Positions 21,540 to 52,560 of a stretch of DNA of 64,000 bases are shown here, one piece after another. The DNA is from Rippkaea orientalis PCC 8801. GTDB taxonomy: Bacteria; Cyanobacteriota; Cyanobacteriia; Cyanobacteriales; Microcystaceae. The position numbers were made by a program, and so were the translations under genes. The notes under the pieces are model-generated. The model had not been told where the DNA came from and did no database searches. It was given only the letters and a program-made list of their open reading frames with translations. Within the stretch, counting starts at the first letter, position 1, and every line of letters starts with the position of its first letter. The stretch spans positions 3,566,097-3,630,096 of the forward strand of contig NC_011726.1 of the NCBI RefSeq assembly GCF_000021805.1, given 5' to 3'.

Positions 21540-24341
21540 ATGAGTGCCAGTTTTTATTTAACTCCCCATGACCTCCTTGCAACTTTTCTAAGTATCAGTG
21601 GTTTAATGGTTTCTCCCATCGCTTCAGCACAAGTTGCTAGTGATGGAACGGTACAAACGCAAGTTAACACCCTAGGGAATCAATTAGAGATTACAGAGGG
21701 AACGCAAGCAGGAAGCAATCTATTTCATAGCTTCAGCCAATTTTCTGTTCCGAGTGGTTTTGAGGCTTATTTTAACAATTCTTCGACCATTAGCAATATT
21801 ATCAGCCGTGTTACAGGGGGTTCAATTTCCAATATAGAGGGACTCATTCGAGCTAACGGGACGGCTAATTTATTCCTGATTAACCCCAATGGTATTGTCT
21901 TTGGTCCGAATGCGGCGGTTGATATTGGGGGGTCTTTTTTAGCCACTACCGCCGAATCCATCCAATTTGCTGATGGCTCTCAATTTAGTGCGACAAACTC
22001 CCAATCTTCACCCATTTTAACGATAGCGGTTCCAGTGGGGTTGCAATTTGGTTCTAACCCTGGAACCATTGTTAATCGAGCTAATCGAACAGTACCTGAT
22101 CCCACTCCTGATAACCCTAATAATACTAGGCAAGTAGGATTTGAGGTTAAATCGGGTAATACTATAGCTCTAGTAGGGGGAGATTTGGATTTTCAGGGGG
22201 GAAGGGTTAATGGTTCAGGAGGAAGGGTTGAACTGGGCAGTGTGGGGGGTAACAGTAGGGTTCAATTAAGCGTGACTAACCCAGGATTGGAGATTGACTA
22301 TCAAGGAGTTACCAACTTTCAAGATATTTCCTTATCTCAACAATCAATAGTAGATGTGAATAATTCAACAATTCAGGTACAGGGCAGCAATATTCGGCTG
22401 ACTAATGGCTCTCAAATTAGCAGCACAACAAGAACAACAGAAGATGCTGGAGATTTAACCGTTAATGCCACTGAATCTGTTGAACTGATTGGCGCTGCCC
22501 CTGAGGGGTTTCCTTTTCCTAGTGCTTTTATTGCTCAAGTCAATCCAGGGGGTACAGGTAGAGGGGGTAATCTGATCATCAATACGAAACAGTTAAGTAT
22601 CCGTGAGGGTGCTGGTATATCAGTAGCGAGTCGAGGTAAAGGAATAGGCGGTCGGCTAGAAGTTAATGTCTCAGAGGCGATTGAGATTACGGGAACTGGT
22701 CCACAATCCCTTAGTGTTCTCACAAGCTCCACAGATGGGACAGGGGATGGCGGCGAAATAGTCATTAATACGAGACAATTAACGCTGAGCAATGGCGGAC
22801 AAATACAGGCGTTTACGATTAATCAAGGACGCGGGGGAACTATCACCATTAACGCTTCTGATTCAATCGAAGTGAGTGGTCGAGGAGCGTTACCAGAGTT
22901 TAATACAGAAAGTTTTAGTTCTATTACAGCAGAATCAGGTTTTCAACTCCTTGGATTTACAGGAATTGCCCCAGGAGGCAATGTTAACATTAATACTAAT
23001 CAACTTATTGTCACCGACGGCGGAACGATTTCTGCTGGCAGTTTTGGACAAGGGAATGCGGGAAGCGTAGATATTACTTCAAATTCGATCTTTTTAGACA
23101 ATCAAGGGGTAATTACGGCTTCTAGTGAAGGAAGCGGGGATGCAGGGAACGTGAGTATCTACACAGACCAACTCTCCGTTAATAATCAATCAGAAATATC
23201 CGTCAGAAACATTGGTTTTGGTCAGGGGGGGAATTTAACGATTAGTGCTGATGCTATTTCGTTAAACCGAAACAGTCAATTGAGTGCCGTTAGTCTTCCC
23301 TTAGAGGATCTAACGCTCCAAAAATTAAGTATTAACGCCGAAGAATTTGCCAACCGTCCCAATATTGGCAACGCAGGGGATTTAATTCTTAACACTTCTT
23401 CATTAAATCTTAATAATGATTCCCAAGTGACCGTCAGCAGTTTTGGAACGGGAAATGCAGGAAGTATGGGGATTACAGCCCAAAATATCGCCCTAGATAA
23501 CAGTAGCGAACTCGCTGCCGAAACAGCTTCAGGGGAAGGGGGTAACATCAGTCTTTATGTCTCAGACTTCCTGAACCTTCGTCGCGCTAGTACCATCTCC
23601 ACCACTGCAGGAACCCTAGGTGGTGGTGGTAATGGAGGTAATATCTTCATTGATGCTGAATTTATGGTTACTGTACCCACCGAAAACAGCGACATTATTG
23701 CCAATGCTTTTCTGGGTAATGGAGGAAACATTCGTATTAACGCCTCTGGAGTGTTTGGGATCGAAGAACGGGAACGTCTGACCCCGTTGAATGACATTAC
23801 CGCGAGTTCCCAATTTGGACAGGTAGGGAGTATTGGTATTAACCGACCCGATGTTGATCCCCAACGCAGCTTAGTTAAATTGCCGGGTGAAGTGGTAGAC
23901 GCAAAAAACCTTGTGGTTCAAGCGTGTAGTCCTGGGGGAGCGTATACGCGAGGCGAATTTAGCATAACGGGCTCAGGGGGTTTACCCGTTAACCCTGATG
24001 AAGGAATTCAAACTGCCCCAGGCTTGACTGAATTAGGCTATCCTGAGATAGAAATGTTTAATCAATCAGATAATCAAGAATCTCTGAAAATCCCAAATGA
24101 GTCTTTAACCCCAGATTATAAGCGTCAGAGTTCTCCTACAACCATTGTGGAAGCTCAAGGCTGGATCATGGATAAGAATGGTAAAGTAGTGCTGACGGCT
24201 CAATCACCTAACGTTACTCCTCACGGTTCTGGGTTTATGCCATCCAACTGTTATGACCTTTCTAACCGTTCCCTTTCCTCGGCTACGTCTCCATCCCCAT
24301 CCCTTTCTGATGTTCCTCAGCGTAATAGTCTGGCTGAGTAG
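21540..24341 (+). CDS. Two-partner secretion exoprotein (TpsA, filamentous haemagglutinin-like)
   Basis: The 933-residue product has a signal peptide (DLLATFLSISGLMVSPIASA, cut near residue 30) and then the haemagglutinin/TPS domain: GTQAGSNLFHSFSQFSVPSG, FNNSSTISNIISRVTGGSIS, RANGTANLFLINPNGIVFGP. The rest is a long series of beta-helix repeats (GGNLIINTKQL, GGNVNINTNQL, AGSVDITSNS). It ends with a Cys-containing tail (NVTPHGSGFMPSNCYDL) usual in cyanobacterial members. It should cross the outer membrane through the TpsB protein encoded next. The frame is open from TTG 21402; ATG 21540 is preferred because it puts the signal peptide at the N-terminus. Confidence 0.88.
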   Translation: MSASFYLTPHDLLATFLSISGLMVSPIASAQVASDGTVQTQVNTLGNQLEITEGTQAGSNLFHSFSQFSVPSGFEAYFNNSSTISNIISRVTGGSISNIEGLIRANGTANLFLINPNGIVFGPNAAVDIGGSFLATTAESIQFADGSQFSATNSQSSPILTIAVPVGLQFGSNPGTIVNRANRTVPDPTPDNPNNTRQVGFEVKSGNTIALVGGDLDFQGGRVNGSGGRVELGSVGGNSRVQLSVTNPGLEIDYQGVTNFQDISLSQQSIVDVNNSTIQVQGSNIRLTNGSQISSTTRTTEDAGDLTVNATESVELIGAAPEGFPFPSAFIAQVNPGGTGRGGNLIINTKQLSIREGAGISVASRGKGIGGRLEVNVSEAIEITGTGPQSLSVLTSSTDGTGDGGEIVINTRQLTLSNGGQIQAFTINQGRGGTITINASDSIEVSGRGALPEFNTESFSSITAESGFQLLGFTGIAPGGNVNINTNQLIVTDGGTISAGSFGQGNAGSVDITSNSIFLDNQGVITASSEGSGDAGNVSIYTDQLSVNNQSEISVRNIGFGQGGNLTISADAISLNRNSQLSAVSLPLEDLTLQKLSINAEEFANRPNIGNAGDLILNTSSLNLNNDSQVTVSSFGTGNAGSMGITAQNIALDNSSELAAETASGEGGNISLYVSDFLNLRRASTISTTAGTLGGGGNGGNIFIDAEFMVTVPTENSDIIANAFLGNGGNIRINASGVFGIEERERLTPLNDITASSQFGQVGSIGINRPDVDPQRSLVKLPGEVVDAKNLVVQACSPGGAYTRGEFSITGSGGLPVNPDEGIQTAPGLTELGYPEIEMFNQSDNQESLKIPNESLTPDYKRQSSPTTIVEAQGWIMDKNGKVVLTAQSPNVTPHGSGFMPSNCYDLSNRSLSSATSPSPSLSDVPQRNSLAE

Positions 24342-26229
24342 CGGTCGTTATGGAGAGACGACAGAAGTCATAGGTACTAGGAGTGGGTTTGATAACGAAG
24401 TCAGAAGTCAGAAGTCAGAAGTCAGGAGTAGTTTTTGTAATGAGGATTTAAACACTGCTCCAAAAACTTTCTGTTTTCAAAGGCAGGGTTTTAGACACAA
24501 TTTTTTTGACAATTTAGTACATAAAAAAATAATAAATCTTGAAAAACTTGCCAGTACAGGAGTTAGCAGTCTGGGCGAACAGCCGTTCGCCCCTACGGTC
24601 ATTGCCAGGGACCCTCTCTCCCCCTCTCCCCCTCCCCCTCTCCCCCTCTCTCCCCCTGAGTCCCCTCCCCCCCTCTCAGTTCCCTCCCCTTCCCTTCCCA
24701 ACGAAGACAATTTAATCAATATTCCAGGGACAATTACGGTCAAAAAGTTTGATTTTGCGGGTAATACGGTCTTTAGTCAGGAAGAATTAGCCGAGGTTAC
24801 TGCGCCTTTTGTTGATCGTCCCCTTACCTTTGCTGAATTGCTTCAGGCGCGATCAGCCGTGACGAAGTATTATGTAAACAATGGGTATGTCACTTCTGGG
24901 TCTTATATTCCTCCTCAAACCATTGAAAATGGCGTTGTTACGATTCAAATTGTTGAGGGGTCTTTAGAGGATATTAATGTTAACGTTGAGGGAAAACTCA
25001 ACCCCAATTATATCCGCGATCGCTTAGCCTTAGCTGGAGAGACTCCTCTTCATCTTCCGACTCTCCTTGAGTCCTTACAATTGCTACAATTAAGCCCTTT
25101 AATTGATAGTATTTCAGCAGAATTATCAGCCAGCCCCCGTCCGGGGAGCAATTTATTAACTGTTAAAGTGGTCACAGCGCAATCATTTTATCCTAAGTTA
25201 ATCTTGGATAATGGACGTAACCCCCAAGCAGGAGAAATTCGTCGCGGTTTTGAGCTTTCGGAACTCAATTTAACAGGAATCGGTGATAAGATTAGGACAA
25301 CCTATTACAATAGTGATGGGAGCGATGATTTTGAGGTAACGTATCAAGTTCCCTTTACGATTTATGATAGCACTGTTGAATTTGGTTTTAGACATTTAAG
25401 CGGCGAAATTCTAGAAAAACCTTTAGATGTTTTAGAGCTAAATTCTGATTATCAAAAGTATTCTTTGAGATTTCGTCAACCGATTATTAAAACCCCTAAT
25501 CAAGAGTTTTCTATTGGACTAGATCTTGATCATCAAAAAAGTAAAACTGTTTATTTAGATGGACTTGCTTTTCCGGGTCGGGGGTCAGATACGGATGGAA
25601 GAACCCATATTTCTACCCTGAGATTTTCTCAAGAATGGGTAGGAAGAACGGAAGAACAGGTACTCGCTTTACGGTCACAATTTGATTGGGGTTTAGAAGC
25701 ATTGGGGACAACAACTCCCTATGATATTAATGTTAATCCAGCAACCCCTGAAGCGACTTATTTTTTATGGCGAGGACAAGGACAATGGGTACAAGTTTTA
25801 GCCCCTGATACATTATTTGTTATTCGTACAGATATCCAAATAGCTGACCGTCCAATTGTTTCTTTAGAACAGTTTTCTTTAGGGGGTTTAGAGAATGTAG
25901 AAGGCTATCGTCAAAACTCTCTTTTAACAGATAATGGTGTTTTTGCTGCTATGGAACTTCGTTTTCCTATTTTTCGCCTTCCGAGGGAAAATTTAGTACT
26001 TCAATTGATTCCGTTTGCTACCTATGGTCAAGGGTGGAATAGTGGCTTATCTCCTGATCCACCCATTAATGAATTAGCCTCTATTGGGCTAGGGTTTCAG
26101 ATTCAATATAATAATATTTTTAGTGCTCGTATCGATTGGGCTCATCCCTTAGGAAAGGATATTTTTCTTGAGGGGAGTTCTTTACAAGATCAAGGAATTA
26201 ATTTTACTATTAATATTAGTCCGTGGTAA
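24253..26229 (+). CDS. Two-partner secretion transporter (TpsB, ShlB/FhaC family)
   Basis: The 658-residue outer-membrane protein has a POTRA domain (about residues 158-245, ITVKKFDFAGNTVFSQEELA and VVTIQIVEGSLEDINV), a second POTRA-like stretch, and a C-terminal 16-stranded beta-barrel ending NFTINISPW with a terminal aromatic. It exports the TpsA protein encoded just upstream; the frames overlap by 89 bp if ATG 24253 is used. An internal start at 24310 (MFLSVIVWLSSG) gives a better signal sequence. The ~110-residue linker before POTRA is made from repeat-like DNA, which is odd. Confidence 0.88.
   Translation: MTFLTVPFPRLRLHPHPFLMFLSVIVWLSSGRYGETTEVIGTRSGFDNEVRSQKSEVRSSFCNEDLNTAPKTFCFQRQGFRHNFFDNLVHKKIINLEKLASTGVSSLGEQPFAPTVIARDPLSPSPPPPLPLSPPESPPPLSVPSPSLPNEDNLINIPGTITVKKFDFAGNTVFSQEELAEVTAPFVDRPLTFAELLQARSAVTKYYVNNGYVTSGSYIPPQTIENGVVTIQIVEGSLEDINVNVEGKLNPNYIRDRLALAGETPLHLPTLLESLQLLQLSPLIDSISAELSASPRPGSNLLTVKVVTAQSFYPKLILDNGRNPQAGEIRRGFELSELNLTGIGDKIRTTYYNSDGSDDFEVTYQVPFTIYDSTVEFGFRHLSGEILEKPLDVLELNSDYQKYSLRFRQPIIKTPNQEFSIGLDLDHQKSKTVYLDGLAFPGRGSDTDGRTHISTLRFSQEWVGRTEEQVLALRSQFDWGLEALGTTTPYDINVNPATPEATYFLWRGQGQWVQVLAPDTLFVIRTDIQIADRPIVSLEQFSLGGLENVEGYRQNSLLTDNGVFAAMELRFPIFRLPRENLVLQLIPFATYGQGWNSGLSPDPPINELASIGLGFQIQYNNIFSARIDWAHPLGKDIFLEGSSLQDQGINFTINISPW
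24399..24690 (+). repeat. Repeat-derived linker inside the TpsB frame
   Basis: Three kinds of low-complexity DNA lie in frame here. GAAGTCA-type 7-bp direct repeats run from about 24399 to 24425. A folded repeat, GGGCGAAC (24573-24580) with GTTCGCCC (24585-24592) followed by CTACG, resembles intergenic repeats. A C/T-rich tract spans about 24613-24690. Together they encode the proline/serine-rich linker. Confidence 0.7.
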
Positions 26230-41683: not shown

Positions 41684-44600
41684 ATGCTCAGAGTTAATGA
41701 AACTGAATGGCGTGCCATAGTCAATCTCACGGGGGTGGGGATAGCTCAAGCTGATCTCCAAACTGGACGGTTTTTGCAGGTTAATCCCGCTTTTTGTCGG
41801 TTAACAGGCTATACGGAAGCCGAATTACTCACCCTGACCATAGACGATCTTAACCATCCCGATGACCGTATCTTTGATCAACAACGTAACCTCAATCTTT
41901 TACAAAGAGGCAGTTATCAGTCAGAAAAACGCTATCAACGCAAAGACGGCAGCACCGTCTGGGTACTAGCAACAGGCGATATTATTCAGGATGCGCAGGG
42001 GCAACCGATTCAGGCTTTTGTGATGGTTCAGGACATTAGCGATATGAAGCAGCGCAAAGCGGAACCCCAACAACTCGAACTGTTCTTGCAAACCTCCGAA
42101 GCCAAACTCAGCCGTATTTTAAATAGTGCGATCGCTGCCATTTCCAGTTTTCGGATCTATGCTAACCGAGACTGGGAATACGACTATTGGTCGGCAGGAT
42201 GCGAAAAAATCTATGGTTATCCCCTCGAAGTCTATCAAGATAAATATTTTTGGCTATCTCAGGTAGTCCCAGAGGATTGTGAGCAGAAGATAATCCCCCT
42301 GTTTGAGGATTTCTTTGCCGAACGCGATGCCACAGTTGAGTATCGTTTTCGTCATCAAGATGGCTCAATTCGTTGGTTCTCCAGTTCCTACTCGTCTCAA
42401 AAAATCACCGAGGATTGTTGGATCGTCACAACGGTTAATTATGATATTACTACTCGCAAACAAGCAGAAATTGACCTAGAAAAAACTCAAAAGCGACTTC
42501 AACAGCAATTAGCAGAAATCGAAACCATTTACCAATCAGCCCCCATCGGACTCTGTGTTTTAGATACCAATCTACGCTTTGTTCGGATCAACCAACGACT
42601 AGCCGAAATCAACGGACTTCCCGTTGAAGCTCATCTCGGTCGAACCGTTAGGGAAGTGCTTCCCCAACTTGCTGATACAGCCGAACAGATCTTAGGGCAG
42701 ATTTTGACCACCGGGGAACCCCTGTTGAATGTGGAAATTACAGGAGAAACCCCGGCCTATCCTGACGTGCAAAGAACCTGGTTAGAAAACTTTTGGCCGC
42801 TCAAAGATCGCGATCGCATCATTGGCATCAGTACGCTTTGTCAGGAGATTACCGAGCGCAAACAAGCAGAACTGGCCTTAAATCAGCAAATAGCTAAAGA
42901 ACGTCTGCTCCTTGAAATTACCCAAGCCATTTACCAAACCCTCGATGTCCGCCAAATTTTACAAACCGCCGTCGCTCAGGTACAACGATGTTGGGACACC
43001 GATCGCGTTATTATTTTTCAATTTGATCCCGATGGGTCAGGGACGGTGGTTGCTGAATCGGTAAAAGCCGATTATCCTGCGATTTTGGGGTCGGAGATTC
43101 ATGATCCTTGTTTTGAGAAGCACTACATAGAACCCTATCGTCAGGGGCGAGTCTCAGCGATCGCTGACTTTCTGACGGCTCAAGTAGAACCTTGCTATCA
43201 AGAGTTCATGGCTCAATTTCAGGTTAGAGGCAATCTTGTCGTCCCCATTTTACAACGGGAACAGTTGTGGGGTTTATTGATCGCCCATCAGTGCAGTGCT
43301 CCCCGACAGTGGCAACCCTCGGAAATTGAACTCCTACAACAAGTAGCTCTTCAGTTGGGTATTGCCATTCAACAAGCGAAACTCTACGAAAAAAATGCCG
43401 AACAGGCGGCCTTCATCGATGTTGCTAGTGATGGCATTTTTGTTCAAGACTTGACTAGCCGTATTTTATTCTGGAGCCAAGGAGCAGAACGCTTGTATGG
43501 TTGGACAGCCCAAGAGGCTATCGGTAAAATGGCTGCTGAACTCTTGCTTCAGGACTCTGTGTCTGAACTAGAAAGTTCTCTCCAGATGACCCTCAAACAA
43601 GGATATTGGAGAGGGGAACTACACCACCTAACCCAAGAGAAGGCAGAAATCATCGTCGAAAGTCGCTGGACATTAATGCGCGATGCTCAGGGCAATCCTA
43701 TCTCAATTTTGACAGTTAATACCGATATTACCGAGAAAAAACTCTTAGAAAAGCAATTATTCCACGCTCAACGCCTAGAGAGTATTGGGACATTGGCCAG
43801 TGGCATCGCCCACGACCTCAATAATATTTTGACTCCTTTGCTCAGTATTTCCCAACTGTTACAACTAAAATATTCTAATTTGGATGAATCAACCTTACGA
43901 CTCCTGCAAATTCTGACAATCAATACCCAACGCGCGGCAAATATCGTTAAGCAATTGCTCTTGTTTTCCTCCTCCACTGAAACGGAATTTAGCTTAATCT
44001 CGCCATCTCAACTCCTAGAAGACGTTTTCAAATTCTTAGGAGAAACCTTCCCCAAATCTATTGAGATTGAAGTCGGAATTTCTCCTGATTTGTGGCTGAT
44101 TAATGGTGATCCTACCCAACTTTATCAAGTTTTGATGAACCTTTGTGTTAATGCACGCGATGCAATGCCTGATGGGGGTCAACTAACCATCTCTGCCCAA
44201 AATATTAACATTGATCAACAATATTCCTATACCAATCACCAGATCAAAGTCGGGCAATACGTTGTCATTACCATCAAAGATACGGGAAGGGGCATTCCTC
44301 GAGAAATCCTTGACCGCATTTTCGATCCCTTTTTTACCACAAAACCCTTGAGTCAAGGAACAGGGTTAGGACTTTCTACCGCCTTGGGCATTATCAAAAA
44401 TCATGGTGGTACTATCGAAGTGTACAGCGATCCCAACAACAGCAGGGGTACTCAATTTAACATTTATTTACCGATCAGCGAGACGATCGCTGTTTCTGAA
44501 ACTACGACGGGTCAGGTTATTCCCTCTGGACAGCAAGAATTAATCTTAGTTGTGGATGATGAAGTCTCGATAGGAGAAATTACGAAAACTACCTTAGAAA

Positions 44601-44896
44601 CCTATAATTATCGAGCGATCGCGGTTGATAATAGCATTGATGCTATCGCTTATTATGCCCAACACTATCAAGAGATTCAAATTGTTTTGATAGATTTGCT
44701 CATGCCAGAAATCGATGGATTAACCATCATGCGGGCTTTAAAAAGAATTAATCCTGATGTTAAGCTCATTGTGACAACTGGACTCACAACCCCAGAAAAC
44801 AGTAAAGCCGCTCAATCCCTCGGAATCAAAGGGTTTTTGCCCAAACCCTACACAGCCGAAACGTTATTATTGATGATGGCAAAAGTTGTAAGCTAA
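41684..44896 (+). CDS. Hybrid sensor histidine kinase (PAS x3, GAF, PAS, HK, receiver)
   Basis: The 1070-residue protein has no membrane segment. In order: three PAS/PAC domains (about 8-125, 145-265, 275-395), a GAF domain (about 410-565), a fourth PAS (about 575-690), HisKA with H-box GIAHDLNNILTPL (His about 709), an ATPase domain with N, G1 and G2 boxes (LMNLCVNARDAMPDG, DTGRGI, GTGLGLSTALGI) and a C-terminal receiver with Asp near 1003 (VLIDLLMPEIDG). The GAF lacks an obvious chromophore Cys in a phytochrome context, so the signal is unknown. No partner regulator is adjacent. Confidence 0.92.
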   Translation: MLRVNETEWRAIVNLTGVGIAQADLQTGRFLQVNPAFCRLTGYTEAELLTLTIDDLNHPDDRIFDQQRNLNLLQRGSYQSEKRYQRKDGSTVWVLATGDIIQDAQGQPIQAFVMVQDISDMKQRKAEPQQLELFLQTSEAKLSRILNSAIAAISSFRIYANRDWEYDYWSAGCEKIYGYPLEVYQDKYFWLSQVVPEDCEQKIIPLFEDFFAERDATVEYRFRHQDGSIRWFSSSYSSQKITEDCWIVTTVNYDITTRKQAEIDLEKTQKRLQQQLAEIETIYQSAPIGLCVLDTNLRFVRINQRLAEINGLPVEAHLGRTVREVLPQLADTAEQILGQILTTGEPLLNVEITGETPAYPDVQRTWLENFWPLKDRDRIIGISTLCQEITERKQAELALNQQIAKERLLLEITQAIYQTLDVRQILQTAVAQVQRCWDTDRVIIFQFDPDGSGTVVAESVKADYPAILGSEIHDPCFEKHYIEPYRQGRVSAIADFLTAQVEPCYQEFMAQFQVRGNLVVPILQREQLWGLLIAHQCSAPRQWQPSEIELLQQVALQLGIAIQQAKLYEKNAEQAAFIDVASDGIFVQDLTSRILFWSQGAERLYGWTAQEAIGKMAAELLLQDSVSELESSLQMTLKQGYWRGELHHLTQEKAEIIVESRWTLMRDAQGNPISILTVNTDITEKKLLEKQLFHAQRLESIGTLASGIAHDLNNILTPLLSISQLLQLKYSNLDESTLRLLQILTINTQRAANIVKQLLLFSSSTETEFSLISPSQLLEDVFKFLGETFPKSIEIEVGISPDLWLINGDPTQLYQVLMNLCVNARDAMPDGGQLTISAQNINIDQQYSYTNHQIKVGQYVVITIKDTGRGIPREILDRIFDPFFTTKPLSQGTGLGLSTALGIIKNHGGTIEVYSDPNNSRGTQFNIYLPISETIAVSETTTGQVIPSGQQELILVVDDEVSIGEITKTTLETYNYRAIAVDNSIDAIAYYAQHYQEIQIVLIDLLMPEIDGLTIMRALKRINPDVKLIVTTGLTTPENSKAAQSLGIKGFLPKPYTAETLLLMMAKVVS

Positions 44897-44961
44897 AAAG
44901 AGAAAATTTGGTAGATCAAAGAAGAAAAAAACAAAAAGACTTAATAGCACCGATGCTGTTT

Positions 44962-45033
44962 ACACGAGCCAGGATGTATGCCCCACCTGGTACATCTCCC
45001 CATGAAATTATTCGAGCCTATTGTGCTTGTTAG
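44962..45033 (+). pseudogene. IS630-type transposase 3' relic
   Basis: The frame reads TRARMYAPPGTSPHEIIRAY then CAC and stop. It is nearly the same as the last 23 codons of the IS630 fragment ending at 52237. The flanking DNA after the stop (TGTCTCATTCTTAT) also matches, until it is cut by the IS701 element at 45048. Confidence 0.85.
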
Positions 45034-45047
45034 TGTCTCATTCTTAT

Positions 45048-46436
45048 CTCTCTTCTGTCAAACTGGGTGAGGTAAAATGAGAAAAAAAGCTTGAAAGCCA
45101 GACAGAGATTATGGTTAAGCCTCGTCCACCGCGACCAACGGTTCAATTCGTAGATACATACTGTGAATTATACAGAGACTTATTCGTAGAAGTCAGAGCT
45201 TATGAGTCCTTTAAATATCTTCAGTTGGGACTAATAAGTGAGCTAAAAAGAAAGAGTTTACCAGCTATAGCTAAGGTGGTAGGATTAAAAAATGGACAAG
45301 GATTACACCATTTTATTAGTCAATCGCCTTGGCAAGCTTGTGACCTAGAGAAAAGAAGATTAGAAATTATCGTAGCTCTCTTAGAAGGAAGAGAAATTAT
45401 GGTAATAATAGATGAGACAGGAGATAAAAAGAAAGGAGAAAAGACCGATTATGTCAAGAGACAATATATCGGCAATTTAGGAAAAATTGAAAAGGGGATA
45501 GTATCGGTGAATGCCTATGGGTATTGCGAGGGAATGACTTTTCCGTTAAAGTTTAAAATCTTTAAACCGAAAGAGAGATTAAAAGAGGGAGATAAGTATC
45601 AAACAAAACCAGAACTAGGAGCAGAATTAGTGAAAGAAATTCAAGAGATGGGCTTTAATATAAAAAGAGTATTAGCTGATAGTTTGTATGGGGAAAGTCA
45701 TAGTAACTTTATTAGTATTTTAGAAAAATTGGGAATAGAATATGCAGTGGGAATCCGCAGTAATCATGGGGTATGGCTACCCAAAGGACAAATAGTAAGA
45801 GCTAATAGATGGAGAGCTTATAAGAATATCAGATGGAATGGTCAAGAAGAAACTCGTTACATTCGAGAGATAATTTATGGCAAAAGAAGAGAGGTGCAAG
45901 ACTGGCAAATTACCACCGATAAAGAAACTGTTCCTGATGACTCAACTTGGTTTGTTATGACCAAAATTCCGAGCCTTAATTATAAAGAAGTTGGCGATAT
46001 TTACAAAATACGAGCTTATGAAGAACAAGGATTTAGAAACAGTAAAAATGAGTTAGGATGGGCAGATTTTCGCTTGACAAACTATGCAGATATACAAAAA
46101 TGGTGGGAATTAGTGATGTGTGCCTATCTCCTGGTTTGTCTACATCATGATATTTTTAACCCTTCCGTTGCTCCCATCCCTAACTGCTATCAACAACATG
46201 ACTTATGGGACTCAGAAAAAGGCTGGAAAAATCAGCTAAATAACCTTCAGTTGATTTGACAGCCTTTTATCTGTTTTAATTTGATTTTAAGATGGCTGAA
46301 AATTTTTCCTATCCCTCAATTATCGTTAGGTTTTCCTAGGCTTATTGCCAAATTTAATGACTTTGATTGTTTACGATATTTGGTTTATTGTTGGCATGAC
46401 TTTTGTTATTCTTCTGCCTAGATTGACAGAAGAGAG
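45048..46436 (+). mobile_element. IS701-family insertion sequence, copy 1
   Basis: The element is 1389 bp. Its ends are imperfect inverted repeats: CTCTCTTCTGTCAAACTGGG at the left and, read inward from the right, CTCTCTTCTGTCAATCTAGG. Copy 2 (49662-51050) has the same length and an identical transposase in opposite orientation. The flanking four bases are TTAT on the left and ATAA on the right, so the copy has no matching direct duplication at present. Confidence 0.93.
45111..46259 (+). CDS. IS701-family transposase, copy 1
   Basis: The 382-residue DDE transposase has DETGDKKKGEKTDYVKRQYI (first Asp), VLADSLYGES (second Asp) and IRAYEEQGFRNSKNELGW (Glu region), as in IS701/DDE_5-type enzymes. 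It is complete, with no stop or shift, so it is probably active. It moves the element by cut-and-paste. The residue sequence is identical to copy 2, suggesting recent transposition or conversion. Confidence 0.93.
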   Translation: MVKPRPPRPTVQFVDTYCELYRDLFVEVRAYESFKYLQLGLISELKRKSLPAIAKVVGLKNGQGLHHFISQSPWQACDLEKRRLEIIVALLEGREIMVIIDETGDKKKGEKTDYVKRQYIGNLGKIEKGIVSVNAYGYCEGMTFPLKFKIFKPKERLKEGDKYQTKPELGAELVKEIQEMGFNIKRVLADSLYGESHSNFISILEKLGIEYAVGIRSNHGVWLPKGQIVRANRWRAYKNIRWNGQEETRYIREIIYGKRREVQDWQITTDKETVPDDSTWFVMTKIPSLNYKEVGDIYKIRAYEEQGFRNSKNELGWADFRLTNYADIQKWWELVMCAYLLVCLHHDIFNPSVAPIPNCYQQHDLWDSEKGWKNQLNNLQLI

Positions 46437-46538
46437 ATAACCCTAACTTTTTAAGGGTCTCTAACAGAAATGTTGAATGTTAAGAAATCGAGATAAAAAA
46501 CCCCGATCCCATCCTATTTTCGTAGGGGTTTAATACCA

Positions 46539-47813
46539 TTAAACCCGTTGAAGAGGCAAAATTAATTGTATCCAACCTCCCCCCGTTTCCGGATGGTTTT
46601 TAGCGGTAATATTGCCCCCATGGGCTTTAATAATTTCCAAGGCGATCGCTAGTCCTAAACCACTTCCTTGACGACGAGATTCAGGATCAGTCCCTTGTCG
46701 CACTCGTGAGGGTTCCCCTCGATATAACCGATCAAAAATATAGGGTAAGTCTTTTTCGAGAAAACCTGAACCTTGATCAATAATATCGATTTGAATACTT
46801 TGATCATCTGGGGTCAATTGAAGAGTCACTTCAATGACACCGTTAGGGGGGCTGTGTTTGAGACTATTATCAAAGATATTCAAAAAAACTTGGAATAAAC
46901 GGGCGCGATCGCCTGAAAACGTGAGTTCTGTCAGTTCTCTAAAGTTTAAGGTAACTTGGGTTTTTTGGGCTAGGGGTGCTAAACTTTGCCAAGCTGATTG
47001 GATTAATTCTCCTAAGTCCAGAGATTCACAGGTTAGGGTTTGACTATGATTTTCCCCTAATTGACTTAAATCAAGCCAATCTTCGACTAATTTAATCAGG
47101 CGTTGAGTTTCGCTTAAAAGTTGGTTAATCCAACGGCGTTCGGGGTTTTCCAAGCGGTTCTGTAGGGTTTCTGCCACTAGGGAAATGGCGGTTAAGGGGG
47201 TTCGCAATTCGTGGGTAAGATCAGAAAAGGCGCGATCGCGGGATTGGGATAATTCTAACAAGGGTTGTTGATTTTCGAGAAATACTGCTACTTCGCCTTG
47301 TTTTAGGGGATAGCTAGAGGCTTTTAGGCTAATAGAGATGGGGCGATCGCCTGATAATAGTTGATTATCATAATTCGGTGGATAAAACACCCATTCTTTT
47401 GTTTGAGGGGTTTGACGCTGGCGAGTTCGTTGAATCTGTTGATCGAGTTCATAGGAACGCACCAACTCCAAGAGGAGGCGAACTTGTCCAGGTTGCCAAC
47501 GATCAAGTTTAAGCAATTGTTGCGCTTGTGGGTTGCACCACAAGAGTTGATTATCTTGATCGATATGAAGATAACCAATGGGCAGGAGATCAAGGATCTG
47601 TTGTTGCTGTTGTAACGTTTCCGTTTGTTGTTGACACTGTTGTTGCAAATAAAGAATTTCTCGACGTACTAGGGACACCGCAGACAAAGATGAGGCTAAA
47701 TCTTTGGTATCGGGTGAAGCGATCAAGATTTTTTGCAATTGAGACTTAAAGCGGTAGTAATTCCACCCCCAAAGTATCATACCAATAAGCAAACCTAGGA
47801 CAAATAGTGACAA
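46539..47813 (-). CDS. sphS: PhoR/SphS-like sensor histidine kinase
   Basis: The 424-residue kinase has an N-terminal hydrophobic helix (FVLGLLIGMILWGW), a coiled segment, one PAS domain (about 72-185, GYLHIDQDNQLLWCNPQAQQ), HisKA with H-box DLTHELRTPLTAIS (His near 201) and an ATPase domain (IFDNSLKHSP, DQGSGF, GSGLGLAIALEI). This layout is that of the cyanobacterial phosphate sensor SphS. The frame starts at TTG 47813 because an in-frame TGA lies just upstream; ATG 47780 would lose much of the anchor. It follows the PhoB-like regulator by 87 bp. Symbol by similarity and context. Confidence 0.75.
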   Translation of the reverse strand: MSLFVLGLLIGMILWGWNYYRFKSQLQKILIASPDTKDLASSLSAVSLVRREILYLQQQCQQQTETLQQQQQILDLLPIGYLHIDQDNQLLWCNPQAQQLLKLDRWQPGQVRLLLELVRSYELDQQIQRTRQRQTPQTKEWVFYPPNYDNQLLSGDRPISISLKASSYPLKQGEVAVFLENQQPLLELSQSRDRAFSDLTHELRTPLTAISLVAETLQNRLENPERRWINQLLSETQRLIKLVEDWLDLSQLGENHSQTLTCESLDLGELIQSAWQSLAPLAQKTQVTLNFRELTELTFSGDRARLFQVFLNIFDNSLKHSPPNGVIEVTLQLTPDDQSIQIDIIDQGSGFLEKDLPYIFDRLYRGEPSRVRQGTDPESRRQGSGLGLAIALEIIKAHGGNITAKNHPETGGGWIQLILPLQRV

Positions 47814-47900
47814 AGTTAATCACAACCTGACTAAAATCGATTGATTCTATGGTAACTGTTAACTGTCCATAACTATGCTATTCGACTTGTCGTAGAAATC

Positions 47901-48653
47901 TTACCCGAAGCGATAGCCAAATCCTCGTACTGTAATGAGATATTCTGGTTGACTGGGATCGGTTTCTAATTTTTCGCGTAACCAACGAATATGAACATCA
48001 ACGGTTTTGGTATCTCCTAGGAAATCAGCCCCCCACACTTGATCAATCAACTGTTCACGGGACCAAACCCGACGAGGATAACTCATAAATAGCTCTAATA
48101 GACGATATTCTTTAGGAGAAAGGTTAATTTCTTCTCCACGAACAACTACCCGACATTCTTCGGGATAAAGGCTAATATCTTTGAACTTACGAACTGGGGC
48201 GGAGGAAACGTTGTTAAAGTCTTGACGACGAATTAAAGCACGACACCGCGCGACTAACTCGCGCATACTAAAGGGTTTCGTTAGATAATCATCGGCTCCT
48301 ACTTCTAATCCTAGTACCCGGTCGGTTTCGCTGGCTTTGGCACTGAGTATCAGAATAGGTACAATATTGTTATTATAACGTAGCAGACGGCAGATATCTA
48401 AGCCGTTAACCTGAGGTAACATCAAATCCAGTACCACTAGGTCAAAACCTGACTCAGTTCCTAGGGTGGCAACATCTTGTAATAAGCTTAAAGCGGTTCG
48501 TCCATCGCTTGCTGTTATCACTTCGTAGCCTTGTTCTTCTAAGGCGATGGTGATCATATCCCGAATCACATCCTCGTCTTCAACGACTAAAATTCGATGG
48601 TTAGGGACGATTTTCTCTAAGGATGAAGACTCAGCTAAGTCCAGAGATAGCAT
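47901..48653 (-). CDS. sphR: PhoB/SphR-like response regulator
   Basis: The 250-residue OmpR-type regulator has a receiver domain (HRILVVEDEDVIRDM, phospho-Asp in LVVLDLMLPQVNG, Lys in LTKPFS) and a winged-helix DNA-binding domain (LSPKEYRLLELFMSYPRRVW, TVDVHIRWLREKLE, ITVRGFGYRFG). It is upstream of the SphS-like kinase on the same strand. Three 11-bp-spaced CTT repeats in its upstream region look like a Pho box. It should activate phosphate-starvation genes. Distinct in N-terminus from RpaA and RpaB. Confidence 0.78.
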   Translation of the reverse strand: MLSLDLAESSSLEKIVPNHRILVVEDEDVIRDMITIALEEQGYEVITASDGRTALSLLQDVATLGTESGFDLVVLDLMLPQVNGLDICRLLRYNNNIVPILILSAKASETDRVLGLEVGADDYLTKPFSMRELVARCRALIRRQDFNNVSSAPVRKFKDISLYPEECRVVVRGEEINLSPKEYRLLELFMSYPRRVWSREQLIDQVWGADFLGDTKTVDVHIRWLREKLETDPSQPEYLITVRGFGYRFG

Positions 48654-48720
48654 AAAAATACCGTTAATGTTAGCTTCTTGTTAAGATATACAATAAAAAT
48701 TCAATTTTGGGAACATTAAA

Positions 48721-48759
48721 CTTTCCCTTATCTTACCCTATCCTTAAAGAATTTAACCT
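48721..48759. promoter_or_regulatory. Candidate Pho box in the divergent sphR-creatininase spacer
   Basis: Three direct repeats with an 11-bp period begin at 48721 (CTTTCCCT), 48732 (CTTACCCT) and 48743 (CTTAAAGA). They are close to the cyanobacterial Pho-box repeat (YTTAAYYT with 3-bp spacers). A further TTTAACCT at 48752-48759 matches the consensus best but is out of period. The site lies 4 bp before the creatininase start and 68 bp upstream of sphR, so it may control either gene. Confidence 0.55.
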
Positions 48760-48762
48760 TCT

Positions 48763-49509
48763 ATGCTGCTACAGTTAAGCACCTGGCCAGAAGTTGAAAA
48801 CTATCTAAAGACTTCATCGGGATTAATCATTCCCATCGGTTCGACGGAACAACATGGACCCACGGGGTTAATTGGAACGGATGCGATTTGTGCCGAGGCG
48901 ATCGCTAAAGGGGTGGGGGAAGAAGTCCAGGCTATGGTTGCACCGACCATTAATGTTGGAATGGCGTTACATCATACGGCTTTCCCTGGAACCATTAGTT
49001 TACGTCCTACGACGCTCATTCAGGTGATTCTGGATTATCTGACTTGTTTGACTGAGGCAGGTTTTAGACGCTTTTTCTTTATTAATGGGCACGGGGGCAA
49101 TATAGCTACCTTAAAAGCTGCTTTTTCTGAAGTTTATTACCATTTAGCTCATCTTAGACTCTCTGAAGCGGATCAAGTACGCTGTCAGGTGGGTAACTGG
49201 TTTATGTGCCGTTCGGTCTATCAAAAGGCGAAGGAATGGTATGGTGATCAAGAGGGATCTCATGCAACTCCGTCTGAAGTAGCTGTTACCCAATATGTTT
49301 ATCCTGAATCTATTAAAAAAGCGGCATTATCCCCAGATGTTGCGTCAGGATATCCTATCTATGGGGCAGAGGATTTTCGCCGTCATTATCCTGATGGTAG
49401 AATGGGTTCTAATCCGGCTTTAGCGACTCCAGAACACGGTCAAGAATTTTATGAGTTAGCCGTTAAAGAACTGTCTAATTCTTATCTAGAATTTTTGCAA
49501 TCTGAGTAA
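48763..49509 (+). CDS. Creatininase-family protein
   Basis: The 248-residue protein has the metal-binding motifs of the creatininase fold: LIIPIGSTEQHGPTGLIGTDA, ALHHTAFPGTISLRP, FFINGHGGNIATLK and a later Glu (DQEGSHATPSEVAVTQY). Members hydrolyse creatinine or open related amide rings, as in F420, riboflavin or mycofactocin side pathways; the cyanobacterial substrate is unknown. It diverges from the sphR gene and lies inside the block bracketed by the two IS701 copies. Confidence 0.88.
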   Translation: MLLQLSTWPEVENYLKTSSGLIIPIGSTEQHGPTGLIGTDAICAEAIAKGVGEEVQAMVAPTINVGMALHHTAFPGTISLRPTTLIQVILDYLTCLTEAGFRRFFFINGHGGNIATLKAAFSEVYYHLAHLRLSEADQVRCQVGNWFMCRSVYQKAKEWYGDQEGSHATPSEVAVTQYVYPESIKKAALSPDVASGYPIYGAEDFRRHYPDGRMGSNPALATPEHGQEFYELAVKELSNSYLEFLQSE

Positions 49510-49524
49510 GTTAAAATCTCCTAT

Positions 49525-49647
49525 TTATTGTCCTGCTGCAAAGATTTCTGCTGCTGTTAGGGTTAACTGCGGAAATACAGAAGAAATGATGCGATCGCTA
49601 TCACGAAATTGTTGAACTTGATACTCTCCATCGAGTAACTGACATAG
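49525..49647 (-). pseudogene. Uma2-type endonuclease 3' fragment
   Basis: Forty codons read LCQLLDGEYQVQQFRDSDRI and continue to TAAEIFAAGQ, the usual C-terminal end of Uma2-family nuclease-like proteins. The rest of the gene is missing: just upstream come the ATTATTTGAAATAAC junction and the right end of the IS701 copy. The gene was cut by IS630-related DNA before the IS701 event. Confidence 0.75.
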
Positions 49648-49661
49648 TTATTTCAAATAAT

Positions 49662-51050
49662 CTCTCTTCTGTCAATCTAGGCAGAAGAATAACAAAAGTC
49701 ATGCCAACAATAAACCAAATATCGTAAACAATCAAAGTCATTAAATTTGGCAATAAGCCTAGGAAAACCTAACGATAATTGAGGGATAGGAAAAATTTTC
49801 AGCCATCTTAAAATCAAATTAAAACAGATAAAAGGCTGTCAAATCAACTGAAGGTTATTTAGCTGATTTTTCCAGCCTTTTTCTGAGTCCCATAAGTCAT
49901 GTTGTTGATAGCAGTTAGGGATGGGAGCAACGGAAGGGTTAAAAATATCATGATGTAGACAAACCAGGAGATAGGCACACATCACTAATTCCCACCATTT
50001 TTGTATATCTGCATAGTTTGTCAAGCGAAAATCTGCCCATCCTAACTCATTTTTACTGTTTCTAAATCCTTGTTCTTCATAAGCTCGTATTTTGTAAATA
50101 TCGCCAACTTCTTTATAATTAAGGCTCGGAATTTTGGTCATAACAAACCAAGTTGAGTCATCAGGAACAGTTTCTTTATCGGTGGTAATTTGCCAGTCTT
50201 GCACCTCTCTTCTTTTGCCATAAATTATCTCTCGAATGTAACGAGTTTCTTCTTGACCATTCCATCTGATATTCTTATAAGCTCTCCATCTATTAGCTCT
50301 TACTATTTGTCCTTTGGGTAGCCATACCCCATGATTACTGCGGATTCCCACTGCATATTCTATTCCCAATTTTTCTAAAATACTAATAAAGTTACTATGA
50401 CTTTCCCCATACAAACTATCAGCTAATACTCTTTTTATATTAAAGCCCATCTCTTGAATTTCTTTCACTAATTCTGCTCCTAGTTCTGGTTTTGTTTGAT
50501 ACTTATCTCCCTCTTTTAATCTCTCTTTCGGTTTAAAGATTTTAAACTTTAACGGAAAAGTCATTCCCTCGCAATACCCATAGGCATTCACCGATACTAT
50601 CCCCTTTTCAATTTTTCCTAAATTGCCGATATATTGTCTCTTGACATAATCGGTCTTTTCTCCTTTCTTTTTATCTCCTGTCTCATCTATTATTACCATA
50701 ATTTCTCTTCCTTCTAAGAGAGCTACGATAATTTCTAATCTTCTTTTCTCTAGGTCACAAGCTTGCCAAGGCGATTGACTAATAAAATGGTGTAATCCTT
50801 GTCCATTTTTTAATCCTACCACCTTAGCTATAGCTGGTAAACTCTTTCTTTTTAGCTCACTTATTAGTCCCAACTGAAGATATTTAAAGGACTCATAAGC
50901 TCTGACTTCTACGAATAAGTCTCTGTATAATTCACAGTATGTATCTACGAATTGAACCGTTGGTCGCGGTGGACGAGGCTTAACCATAATCTCTGTCTGG
51001 CTTTCAAGCTTTTTTTCTCATTTTACCTCACCCAGTTTGACAGAAGAGAG
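49662..51050 (-). mobile_element. IS701-family insertion sequence, copy 2 (inverted)
   Basis: This 1389-bp copy is opposite in direction to copy 1 and has the same inverted ends. It is flanked by TAAT on the left and TTAT on the right. The right flank is shared with the MITE array, so this IS and the three MITEs form a run of four elements with TTAT between neighbours. Confidence 0.93.
49839..50987 (-). CDS. IS701-family transposase, copy 2
   Basis: All 382 residues are the same as in copy 1, with intact DETGDKKKGE, VLADSLYGES and YEEQGFRNSKNE catalytic segments. It is therefore a full-length, probably active transposase. It is also the likely enzyme for mobilising the neighbouring MITEs, which have the same CTCTCTTCTGTCA ends. 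Confidence 0.93.
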   Translation of the reverse strand: MVKPRPPRPTVQFVDTYCELYRDLFVEVRAYESFKYLQLGLISELKRKSLPAIAKVVGLKNGQGLHHFISQSPWQACDLEKRRLEIIVALLEGREIMVIIDETGDKKKGEKTDYVKRQYIGNLGKIEKGIVSVNAYGYCEGMTFPLKFKIFKPKERLKEGDKYQTKPELGAELVKEIQEMGFNIKRVLADSLYGESHSNFISILEKLGIEYAVGIRSNHGVWLPKGQIVRANRWRAYKNIRWNGQEETRYIREIIYGKRREVQDWQITTDKETVPDDSTWFVMTKIPSLNYKEVGDIYKIRAYEEQGFRNSKNELGWADFRLTNYADIQKWWELVMCAYLLVCLHHDIFNPSVAPIPNCYQQHDLWDSEKGWKNQLNNLQLI

Positions 51051-51054
51051 TTAT

Positions 51055-51228
51055 CTCTCTTCTGTCACTCTTGGAAAGGATGATCGCTAAAAGTCTTATG
51101 ACAAGAACACTTGAGCGATTTGACCAGAATTTTAATTTCTTAATAGAAAATAAGGTAGCGATCGCCCTTTTTGTAAGAGTTCTAGAAATTAGAAATTATC
51201 AGGGTTCCCCCAGAGTGACAAAAGAGAG
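51055..51228. mobile_element. MITE 1 of 3, IS701-related ends
   Basis: The element is 174 bp with ends CTCTCTTCTGTCACTCTTGG and, inverted, CTCTCTTTTGTCACTCTGGG. It has no transposase and contains a HIP1 site. TTAT flanks it on both sides (51051-51054 and 51229-51232). It is identical to MITE 2. Confidence 0.9.
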
Positions 51229-51232
51229 TTAT

Positions 51233-51406
51233 CTCTCTTCTGTCACTCTTGGAAAGGATGATCGCTAAAAGTCTTATGACAAGAACACTTGAGCGATTTG
51301 ACCAGAATTTTAATTTCTTAATAGAAAATAAGGTAGCGATCGCCCTTTTTGTAAGAGTTCTAGAAATTAGAAATTATCAGGGTTCCCCCAGAGTGACAAA
51401 AGAGAG
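51233..51406. mobile_element. MITE 2 of 3, identical to MITE 1
   Basis: A 174-bp exact repeat of MITE 1 in the same direction, separated from it by TTAT and followed by TTAT (51407-51410). Short open frames across the array are chance products of the repeat. Confidence 0.9.
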
Positions 51407-51410
51407 TTAT

Positions 51411-51583
51411 CTTTCTTCTGTCACTCTCGGAAAGATGATCGCTAAAAGTCTTATGACAACGAAACTTGAGCGATTTGACCAGAATTTTGATTTCTTAATA
51501 GAAAATAAGGTAGCGATCGCCCTTTTTGTAAGAGTTTTAGAGCTTAGAAATCATCAGGTTTCCCCCAGAGTGACAAAAGAGAG
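51411..51583. mobile_element. MITE 3 of 3, diverged
   Basis: A 173-bp copy in the same direction, with about a dozen substitutions and small indels relative to MITEs 1 and 2 (for example CTTTCTTCTG at the left end). TTAT follows at 51584-51587. It is probably the oldest member of the array. Confidence 0.88.
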
Positions 51584-51586
51584 TTA

Positions 51587-52000
51587 TATGAAATCCGTTT
51601 AATCAGTTAATGCAAGTATCAGTTGTCGGCCACCAATGAAAACAAGTTAATCCACTCACAAATTCTGGCTGTTCCATTAATACCTTAAGGCGAGGAATCA
51701 AGACCTCTTCTAATTCTTCTATTGTTTCAAAAGAACGATTATAACGTCTGGCTAATTCACGAACCCACTCAACTGTATATCCCGTGGCGATCGCTACCTC
51801 TTCTGTTTTTTTTCCACTAGCTAATAGCCAGATTATCTGATATTGACTTCGAGTGACTGGATTTTTCGCACTCCGATATTTAGTTTGTAATTCAGTGATA
51901 CTCAGGTGAGAGACTATCTCAATTCTTCTTGGCATCTGGGGGCGATCATTTATTAACTCTACCCTTTTATTATACGTTAACCATTCAAGCGGATTTCATA
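51587..52000 (-). mobile_element. Internally deleted IS630-type element
   Basis: A 414-bp element has 14-bp inverted ends: TATGAAATCCGTTT at the left and AAGCGGATTTCATA at the right (one mismatch). It encloses a transposase frame whose middle is deleted (51603-51935). It is thus a non-autonomous derivative. It sits beside MITE 3 and next to a separate IS630 fragment of opposite direction. Confidence 0.8.
51603..51935 (-). pseudogene. IS630-type transposase, internally deleted
   Basis: The 110-residue frame joins an N-terminal helix-turn-helix part (MPRRIEIVSHLSITELQTKY, GKKTEEVAIATGYTVEWVRE) to a C-terminal part (FETIEELEEVLIPRLKVLME, LTCFHWWPTTDTCIN). The DDE catalytic domain between them is lost. 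It might bind the element ends but cannot transpose. The join at about residue 72 is in frame. Confidence 0.82.
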
Positions 52001-52021
52001 TTAATTCCCTCTCTTACTCAG

Positions 52022-52237
52022 ACCTCAGTCTTAATCATGGACAATTCACCTATTCATCGAAAAACGGTCATTCGACAATTAGTAGAAGAAACCGGACACG
52101 AAGTGTTATTTTTACCGAAATATTCCCCTGATCTCAATGATATTGAGCATGATTTCAGTGCCTTAAAACGAGCCAGGATGTACGCTCCACCTGGTACATC
52201 TCTCGATGAAATCATTCGAGCCTATTGTGGTTGTTAG
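52022..52237 (+). pseudogene. IS630-type transposase, 3' fragment
   Basis: The frame reads TSVLIMDNSPIHRKTVIRQL, then FLPKYSPDLNDIEHDFSALK and ends RAYCGC. It carries the last Asp and the Glu of the DDE_3 domain but no N-terminal half. It is close kin of the relic at 44962-45033. Its direction is opposite to the deleted element on its left. The DNA after its stop (52238-52265) preserves the uninterrupted form of the flank split by IS701 elsewhere. Confidence 0.85.
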
Positions 52238-52261
52238 TGTCTCATTCTTATTTGAAATAAC

Positions 52262-52560
52262 TATAGAAGTTTATATTATGTGGCCAAAGCTATAACTAGA
52301 GGAGAAAACCCTGATGTAGTCAGCTATTTGGTTGAACGAGCTAAACTATTTGGCTTGGTTGAAGCTGAGCGAAAGCCACACCGAGACAAAGTCGCTCTCA
52401 CTCAACAAATTTGGGAGGCTATACCGTTAAGTTGACACCAATGACGGCCGTTGACCCCTACACCATTGCTATCTGTCGTCAGATTTTGAAGATTTGGTAT
52501 TAAAAAGGGATACTAGAGAAATCCTGTTGCAAAAGCCAATTACTACGGTTTGAAAAGGGG
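52262..52560 (+). pseudogene. Unrecognised gene debris
   Basis: The first part (52262-52435) is an open tail reading VAKAITRGENPDVVSYLVER through TQQIWEAIPLS and stop, without a start. The next ~120 bp contain SSDFEDLVLKRDTREILLQK in another frame. They look like remains of one or two genes broken by the IS630 events. I cannot name the families. The AT-rich spacer to 52676 shows nothing more. Confidence 0.5.

Follow-up and report, generated by a model that had tools for sequence, protein, structure and literature searches.

This analysis concerns a 64,000-nt stretch of the genome of Rippkaea orientalis PCC 8801 (the window, bases 3566097-3630096 of a contig of 4,679,413 bp; the genome comprises 4.79 Mb in 4 contigs) and, within it, a block that carries a SphS/SphR-like regulatory gene pair and a creatininase-family gene and is enclosed by two insertion sequence (IS) copies of the IS701 family lying in opposite directions. 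Pieces of an IS of another family, IS630, adjoin the left copy on its outer side and the right copy on its inner side, and a full-length IS630-family copy elsewhere in the genome (locus L043; 957 nt including the TAs, with terminal repeats and TA at both ends) was used for comparison. The features on which the argument depends are as follows, in window positions (ORF, open reading frame):

44892-45047, + strand: IS630-family remnant no. 1, in two pieces with an internal deletion (blastn against L043: 44892-44962, 94%; 44964-45047, 92%)
45044-45047, + strand: TTAT, left flank of IS701 copy 1 (direct reading)
45048-46436, + strand: IS701-family copy 1, 1389 bp, transposase ORF 45111-46259 (NF033540), identical to copy 2
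46437-49661, no strand assigned: block of ~3.2 kb, probably inverted between the IS701 copies (flank analysis)
46539-47813, - strand: SphS/PhoR-like histidine kinase, 424 aa (HisKA, HATPase_c; 419-429 aa in relatives L061, L062 and L097)
47901-48653, - strand: SphR/PhoB-like response regulator, 250 aa (end-to-end alignment with relatives; PhoB model)
48763-49509, + strand: creatininase-family amidohydrolase, 248 aa (PF02633, 239 bits), divergent from the response regulator
49510-49643, - strand: C-terminal gene remnant, presumably Uma2-like (translation; N-terminal part not seen at the locus)
49644-49660, - strand: terminal 17 nt of the right repeat of an IS630-family element, absent from remnant no. 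1
49662-51050, - strand: IS701-family copy 2, 1389 bp, transposase ORF 49839-50987
51051-51054, + strand: TTAT, right-hand flank that IS701 copy 2 has in common with the first of the neighbouring miniature inverted-repeat transposable elements (MITEs) (direct reading)
52001-52265, + strand: second IS630-family copy (no. 2), right part only, its right terminal repeat intact (99% to L043 over 265 nt; DDE_3)

The inverted arms extend over 1394 nt at 100% identity, and after trimming to the CTCTC...GAGAG termini both IS701 copies measure 1389 bp with 0 differences, as had been claimed in a first-pass annotation of this DNA. Their transposase lies above the family cut-off of NF033540 (241.5 bits, cut-off 150). 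When the element was searched against 7 genomes of the genus, its own included, similar sequences were found in 2 genomes besides its own, with best matches of 74% (579 bases) and 80% (104 bases). At present, copy 1 is flanked by TTAT/ATAA and copy 2 by TAAT/TTAT. Re-inversion of 46437-49661 gives TTAT/TTAT at copy 2 and TTAT/A+TTAT, with an extra A, at copy 1; the same annotation had held that both copies regain matching flanks in this way, one of them imperfectly, and this proved right.

More telling than the flanks is the element into which copy 1 is set. The bases directly to its left (45034-45047) read TGTCTCATTCTTAT, and the inner flank of copy 2, read on the minus strand from 49661 to 49644, is ATTATTTGAAATAACTAT. 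The right terminal repeat of IS630 remnant no. 1 is truncated exactly at TTAT by IS701 copy 1, and its last 17 nt lie at 49644-49660 in reverse. The 17-mer has 0 mismatches to the right repeat of L043 and 2 to the left one. Its assignment to a left repeat was rejected in view of these 2 mismatches, and no IS630 left half was seen beside it. When ≤2 mismatches are allowed, the window has two occurrences of it where 0.02 would be expected, and an 18-base version gives 14 sites in the genome at ≤2 mismatches (8 of the 14 are the variant TATAGTCATTTCAAGTAA) versus 0 for a reversed-pattern control. After the extra A and one TTAT are dropped, the rejoined flanks match L043 at 58 of 61 bases, including 13 of 13 past the TTAT; the present junction, treated in the same manner, matches at 48 of 61 and at 3 of 13, respectively. 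The IS630 terminus is split across the two junctions.

An uninterrupted sequence, TGTCTCATTCTTATTTGAAATAACTAT, is found at 52238-52264, where the first-pass annotation had placed it. Its strings and coordinates were correct within one base, the range being one base shorter than claimed (the end is 52264, not 52265). The sequence does exist, but it is not a neutral ancestral site or unique DNA: it belongs to IS630-family copy no. 2, as its right terminal repeat. The piece at 51929-52237 has PF13358 (DDE_3) above the cut-off and reaches 54.7 against a cut-off of 100 with NF033545, a value that refers to a 102-aa C-terminal piece only. The window resembles the IS630 family in this DDE_3 match and in its kinship with L043, which has terminal repeats and TA at both ends, and differs in containing only decayed right-hand parts, below the NF033545 cut-off.

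According to PMC2266710, 4-bp target duplications accompany nearly all IS701-family elements. Among the insertions outside the window with both ends readable, one of three is exact, namely L034, a nearly full-length IS701 copy (98%, ~30 nt shorter) flanked by TTAT/TTAT; the other two are off by one base. Full-length MITEs with IS701-like ends have an exact 4-bp duplication in 8 of 9 cases in the genome, or in 5 of 6 without the window array (3 partial MITE matches stand outside this count). Their target sites are TTAT (4), TTAA (2), ATAA (1), TTAC (1) and the mismatched GTAA/TTAA (1), and IS701-type ends in the genome are mostly located at TTAT, ATAA or TTAA sites. Because of this preference, and because the outer flanks of the IS701 pair also agree (TTAT/TTAT), a 4-bp match by itself is weak evidence, and the argument rests on the split IS630 terminus rather than on the 4-mers. 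The window element is like other members of the IS701 family in its transposase and in the 4-bp duplications that L034 and 8 of the 9 MITEs show, and unlike them in that copies 1 and 2 have no matching flanks as they stand.

Several observations count against an inversion. On re-inversion the extra A stays between IS701 copy 1 and its TTAT, and with nothing dropped the rejoined flanks match L043 at only 51 of 66 bases. At the outer end of the rejoined IS630 copy, where a duplicated TA would be expected, the sequence is TG. Target duplications of IS701 are imperfect elsewhere too, with TTAT/ATAT at L033 and GTAT/ATAT at the plasmid pieces L035/L036, which were counted as one insertion. Finally, the other orientation of the block is not shown by any strain or relative among the 46 loci compared, which include no genome of the same species.

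These 46 loci, out of 80, are L060-L102, L105, L118 and L128; 45 have cyanobacterial titles and one, L100, is titled Gracilibacteria, while L125 and L126, also with cyanobacterial titles, were left out. Up to 10 kb on each side of the block were compared (only ~0.5 kb on the creatininase/regulator side in L072 and L082), and window genes were considered matched at ≥45% identity, ≥40% coverage and E ≤1e-12. In the genome set each species is represented by a single genome, and very close records may be missing from the loci. The inner block is kept to varying degrees in these loci. Among window genes outside the block, only the ORF 24253-26229, ~20 kb away, is matched, and only in L118 (47%). 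Since the loci share no window genes near the block, gene order in relatives, which had been proposed as a check, does not decide on the orientation. Two genes adjoining the block in relatives (L061, L060) have their best matches here at 2.23 Mb and 0.42 Mb; as the relatives' neighbour genes lie so far from the block, a moved block and general reshuffling are indistinguishable.

Taking these data together, inversion of 46437-49661 between the IS701 copies appears to be the most economical reading, and we consider it probable, because the terminus found in reverse beside copy 2 is exactly what IS630 remnant no. 1 is missing. In the course of events that we infer, a decayed IS630-family copy would have carried an IS701 element at a TTAT of its right terminal repeat, and a second IS701 copy, identical but oppositely oriented, would have occupied a TTAT adjoining the MITE array. 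An exchange between them, most likely homologous recombination over 1389 identical bases, would have flipped the 3.2-kb block, so that each IS701 copy received one flank of the other, and the sphS-like, sphR-like and creatininase genes, the gene remnant and the DNA between them would have moved as one unit. PMC2266710 names inversions by homologous recombination among the general effects of IS proliferation. The locus is similar to other IS-pair inversion systems in that identical inverted IS copies bracket a block and target flanks are swapped; it differs in the single orientation seen and in the extra base at one flank.

The first-pass annotation attributed the inversion to recombination. 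Inversion remains the simplest explanation and is strengthened by the independent L043 copy, but its direction in time and its mechanism are a matter of interpretation, and two other processes would give the same pattern. Replicative transposition within the molecule is one: a single IS701 in the IS630 remnant would have attacked a TTAT by the MITE array, copying itself and inverting the DNA between. Such transposition leaves the same swapped target duplications as are known for IS6-type elements, and homologous recombination is not distinguished from it by the flanks. The identity of copies 1 and 2 would agree with this route, given that the copy at L033 differs from them at 2 positions, but a 611-nt plasmid piece of IS701 is also identical to copy 1, which makes identity not unique to this pair, and there is no sign in the data that IS701-family elements transpose replicatively. 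We find this route rather unlikely; it is a special case of inversion, and its share is contained in the probability given to inversion as a whole. The other process is an assembly error, in which the true chromosome has the block re-inverted, or both orientations occurred in the culture and one was chosen. Exactly the same flanks are predicted, and the identical arms of 1394 nt exceed a single short or Sanger read of usual length. Against this, paired clones easily span 1.4 kb, and a genome of 4.79 Mb in only 4 contigs was finished to some degree, so an error of this kind seems improbable to us.

Explanations that dispense with inversion fare worse. The IS701 copies may have entered the ends of different IS630 elements independently, the other halves being removed by IS-adjacent deletions. 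IS701-type elements do enter IS630 copies (a MITE is present at TTAT in the L045 remnant), and the region is a mobile-element nest with deletions. Nevertheless, two insertions would have had to hit two IS630 copies at an identical base and in the same relative direction, and two deletions would have had to end exactly at the IS and retain complementary halves, a combination that we regard as very improbable. It is harder still to believe that the block arrived as a composite transposon, a unit between its two IS701 copies. The outer flanks do form a perfect 4-bp match (TTAT/TTAT), and the block adjoins other genes in the relatives examined, but different surroundings say little when the relatives' neighbour genes lie far apart here, and it would stay unexplained why copy 2 is bordered on its inner side by precisely the IS630 terminus that is absent outside copy 1.

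Both genes of the regulatory pair lie inside the block, in agreement with the earlier view that a phosphate-response pair had been moved whole; the phosphate label, on the other hand, comes from similarity only. All curated models of the PhoB/PhoR type remained below their cut-offs (regulator: PhoB, 242 bits, cut-off 296; kinase, best hits: PnpS, 185 bits, cut-off 400, and PhoR, 167 bits, cut-off 334), and the names SphS and SphR should be taken as provisional ones based on such resemblance. A search of 38 other genomes with 1.5-kb flanks, which served regulator matches only, gave 82-83% aa identity over residues 1-250 for the best genomes; the best named matches listed include, at 82-83% aa, the unicellular cyanobacterium SU2 and two Epithemia endosymbionts.

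The creatininase and SphR-like regulator genes are divergent neighbours in 29 of the 46 loci compared, a recurrent pairing across the intergenic region that here occupies 48654-48762. L072 and L082, with their short stretch on that side, are among the remaining 17. This neighbourhood hints at a possible functional link; no literature joining sphR, creatininase and cyanobacteria was found in the library searched. The remnant at 49510-49643 matches L088 (73% aa over 37 residues), L093 (51% over 35) and L070 (44%). A like fragment adjoins the creatininase gene in L093, but is located beyond the kinase gene in L088, and it has no bearing on the inversion. The Pfam scan covered 14 window proteins and 2 fragments; no match was obtained for a 40-aa piece of this remnant or for the fragment 52266-52433 described below.

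The surroundings of the block contain the following further features:

41684-44896, + strand: left neighbour, PAS/GAF hybrid histidine kinase ORF, 1070 aa (ORF, Pfam, blastn)
51055-51583, + strand: three head-to-tail MITEs with IS701-like ends and TTAT between them (51055-51228, 51233-51406, 51411-51583)
51588-52000 (ends approximate), no strand assigned: further inserted element with TATGAAATCCG-type ends, containing a 110-aa ORF on the minus strand (51603-51935)
52266-52433, + strand: C-terminal piece of a further multicopy gene (91 matches in genome G011), which probably encodes a transposase

The final 5 bases of the left-hand kinase ORF overlap the IS630 match, its stop being at the edge of the remnant (44892-44896), and the C-terminus of this protein may have been altered by the IS630 element. 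The right-hand side of the locus is a nest of mobile elements. In the MITE array (51051-51587), single TTAT spacers are shared among the MITEs and with IS701 copy 2, and the array could have arisen through tandem duplication or through repeated insertion into one target; 6 further full-length MITE copies are present in the genome. The fragment 52266-52433 is matched in 6 of 38 other genomes; the idea that it is part of a host enzyme was rejected, as it is the tail of a gene found at 91 places in G011. IS701-type insertions at TTAT abut a TATGAAATCCG-ended element twice (L034 and 51584-51600), and the MITE of L045 is inserted at TTAT inside an IS630 remnant. It seems that insertion of IS701-type ends frequently takes place within or next to other mobile elements.

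On the small contig G000:C1 (L176; 7765-9400 and 22838-24874) there are two inverted copies of a CTCACATCTTGCACC-ended IS, 99.7% identical over 1439 nt. Each abuts one part of IS701 (1-611 and 1240-1389), the two parts being on opposite strands ~15 kb apart. This pattern suggests a second IS-mediated inversion, with the caveat that 628 nt of IS701 are missing and the second CTCACATCTTGCACC-ended copy has no far end.

No literature on the present locus was found, as judged from titles and abstract openings, although a mention inside a paper is possible. One may ask whether the IS701 pair serves as a permanent switch by which a phosphate-type regulator pair is reversibly flipped, with both orientations coexisting in the population. 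If so, read-through or antisense transcription from the IS copies into the 3' ends of the sphS-like or creatininase genes would not be the same in the two orientations. There is no sign of a switch at this locus, and no invertase or tyrosine-recombinase family was detected in the Pfam scan of the 14 proteins and 2 fragments; we think such a role extremely unlikely. Between the end of the kinase ORF and IS701 copy 1 there are 102 bases, and no visible gene would be broken by the flip. As the genes of the block and the intervening DNA are carried over whole, a functional change is not expected, and nothing seen in the sequence would point to altered regulation.

In our opinion, the event is an ordinary one of a known kind. 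On a small scale it illustrates cleanly how a gene block may be flipped by identical IS copies, with breakpoints that are legible from another element split across the junctions. It matters mainly for the reading of gene order in this genome, and warns that such orientations need long-read checks.

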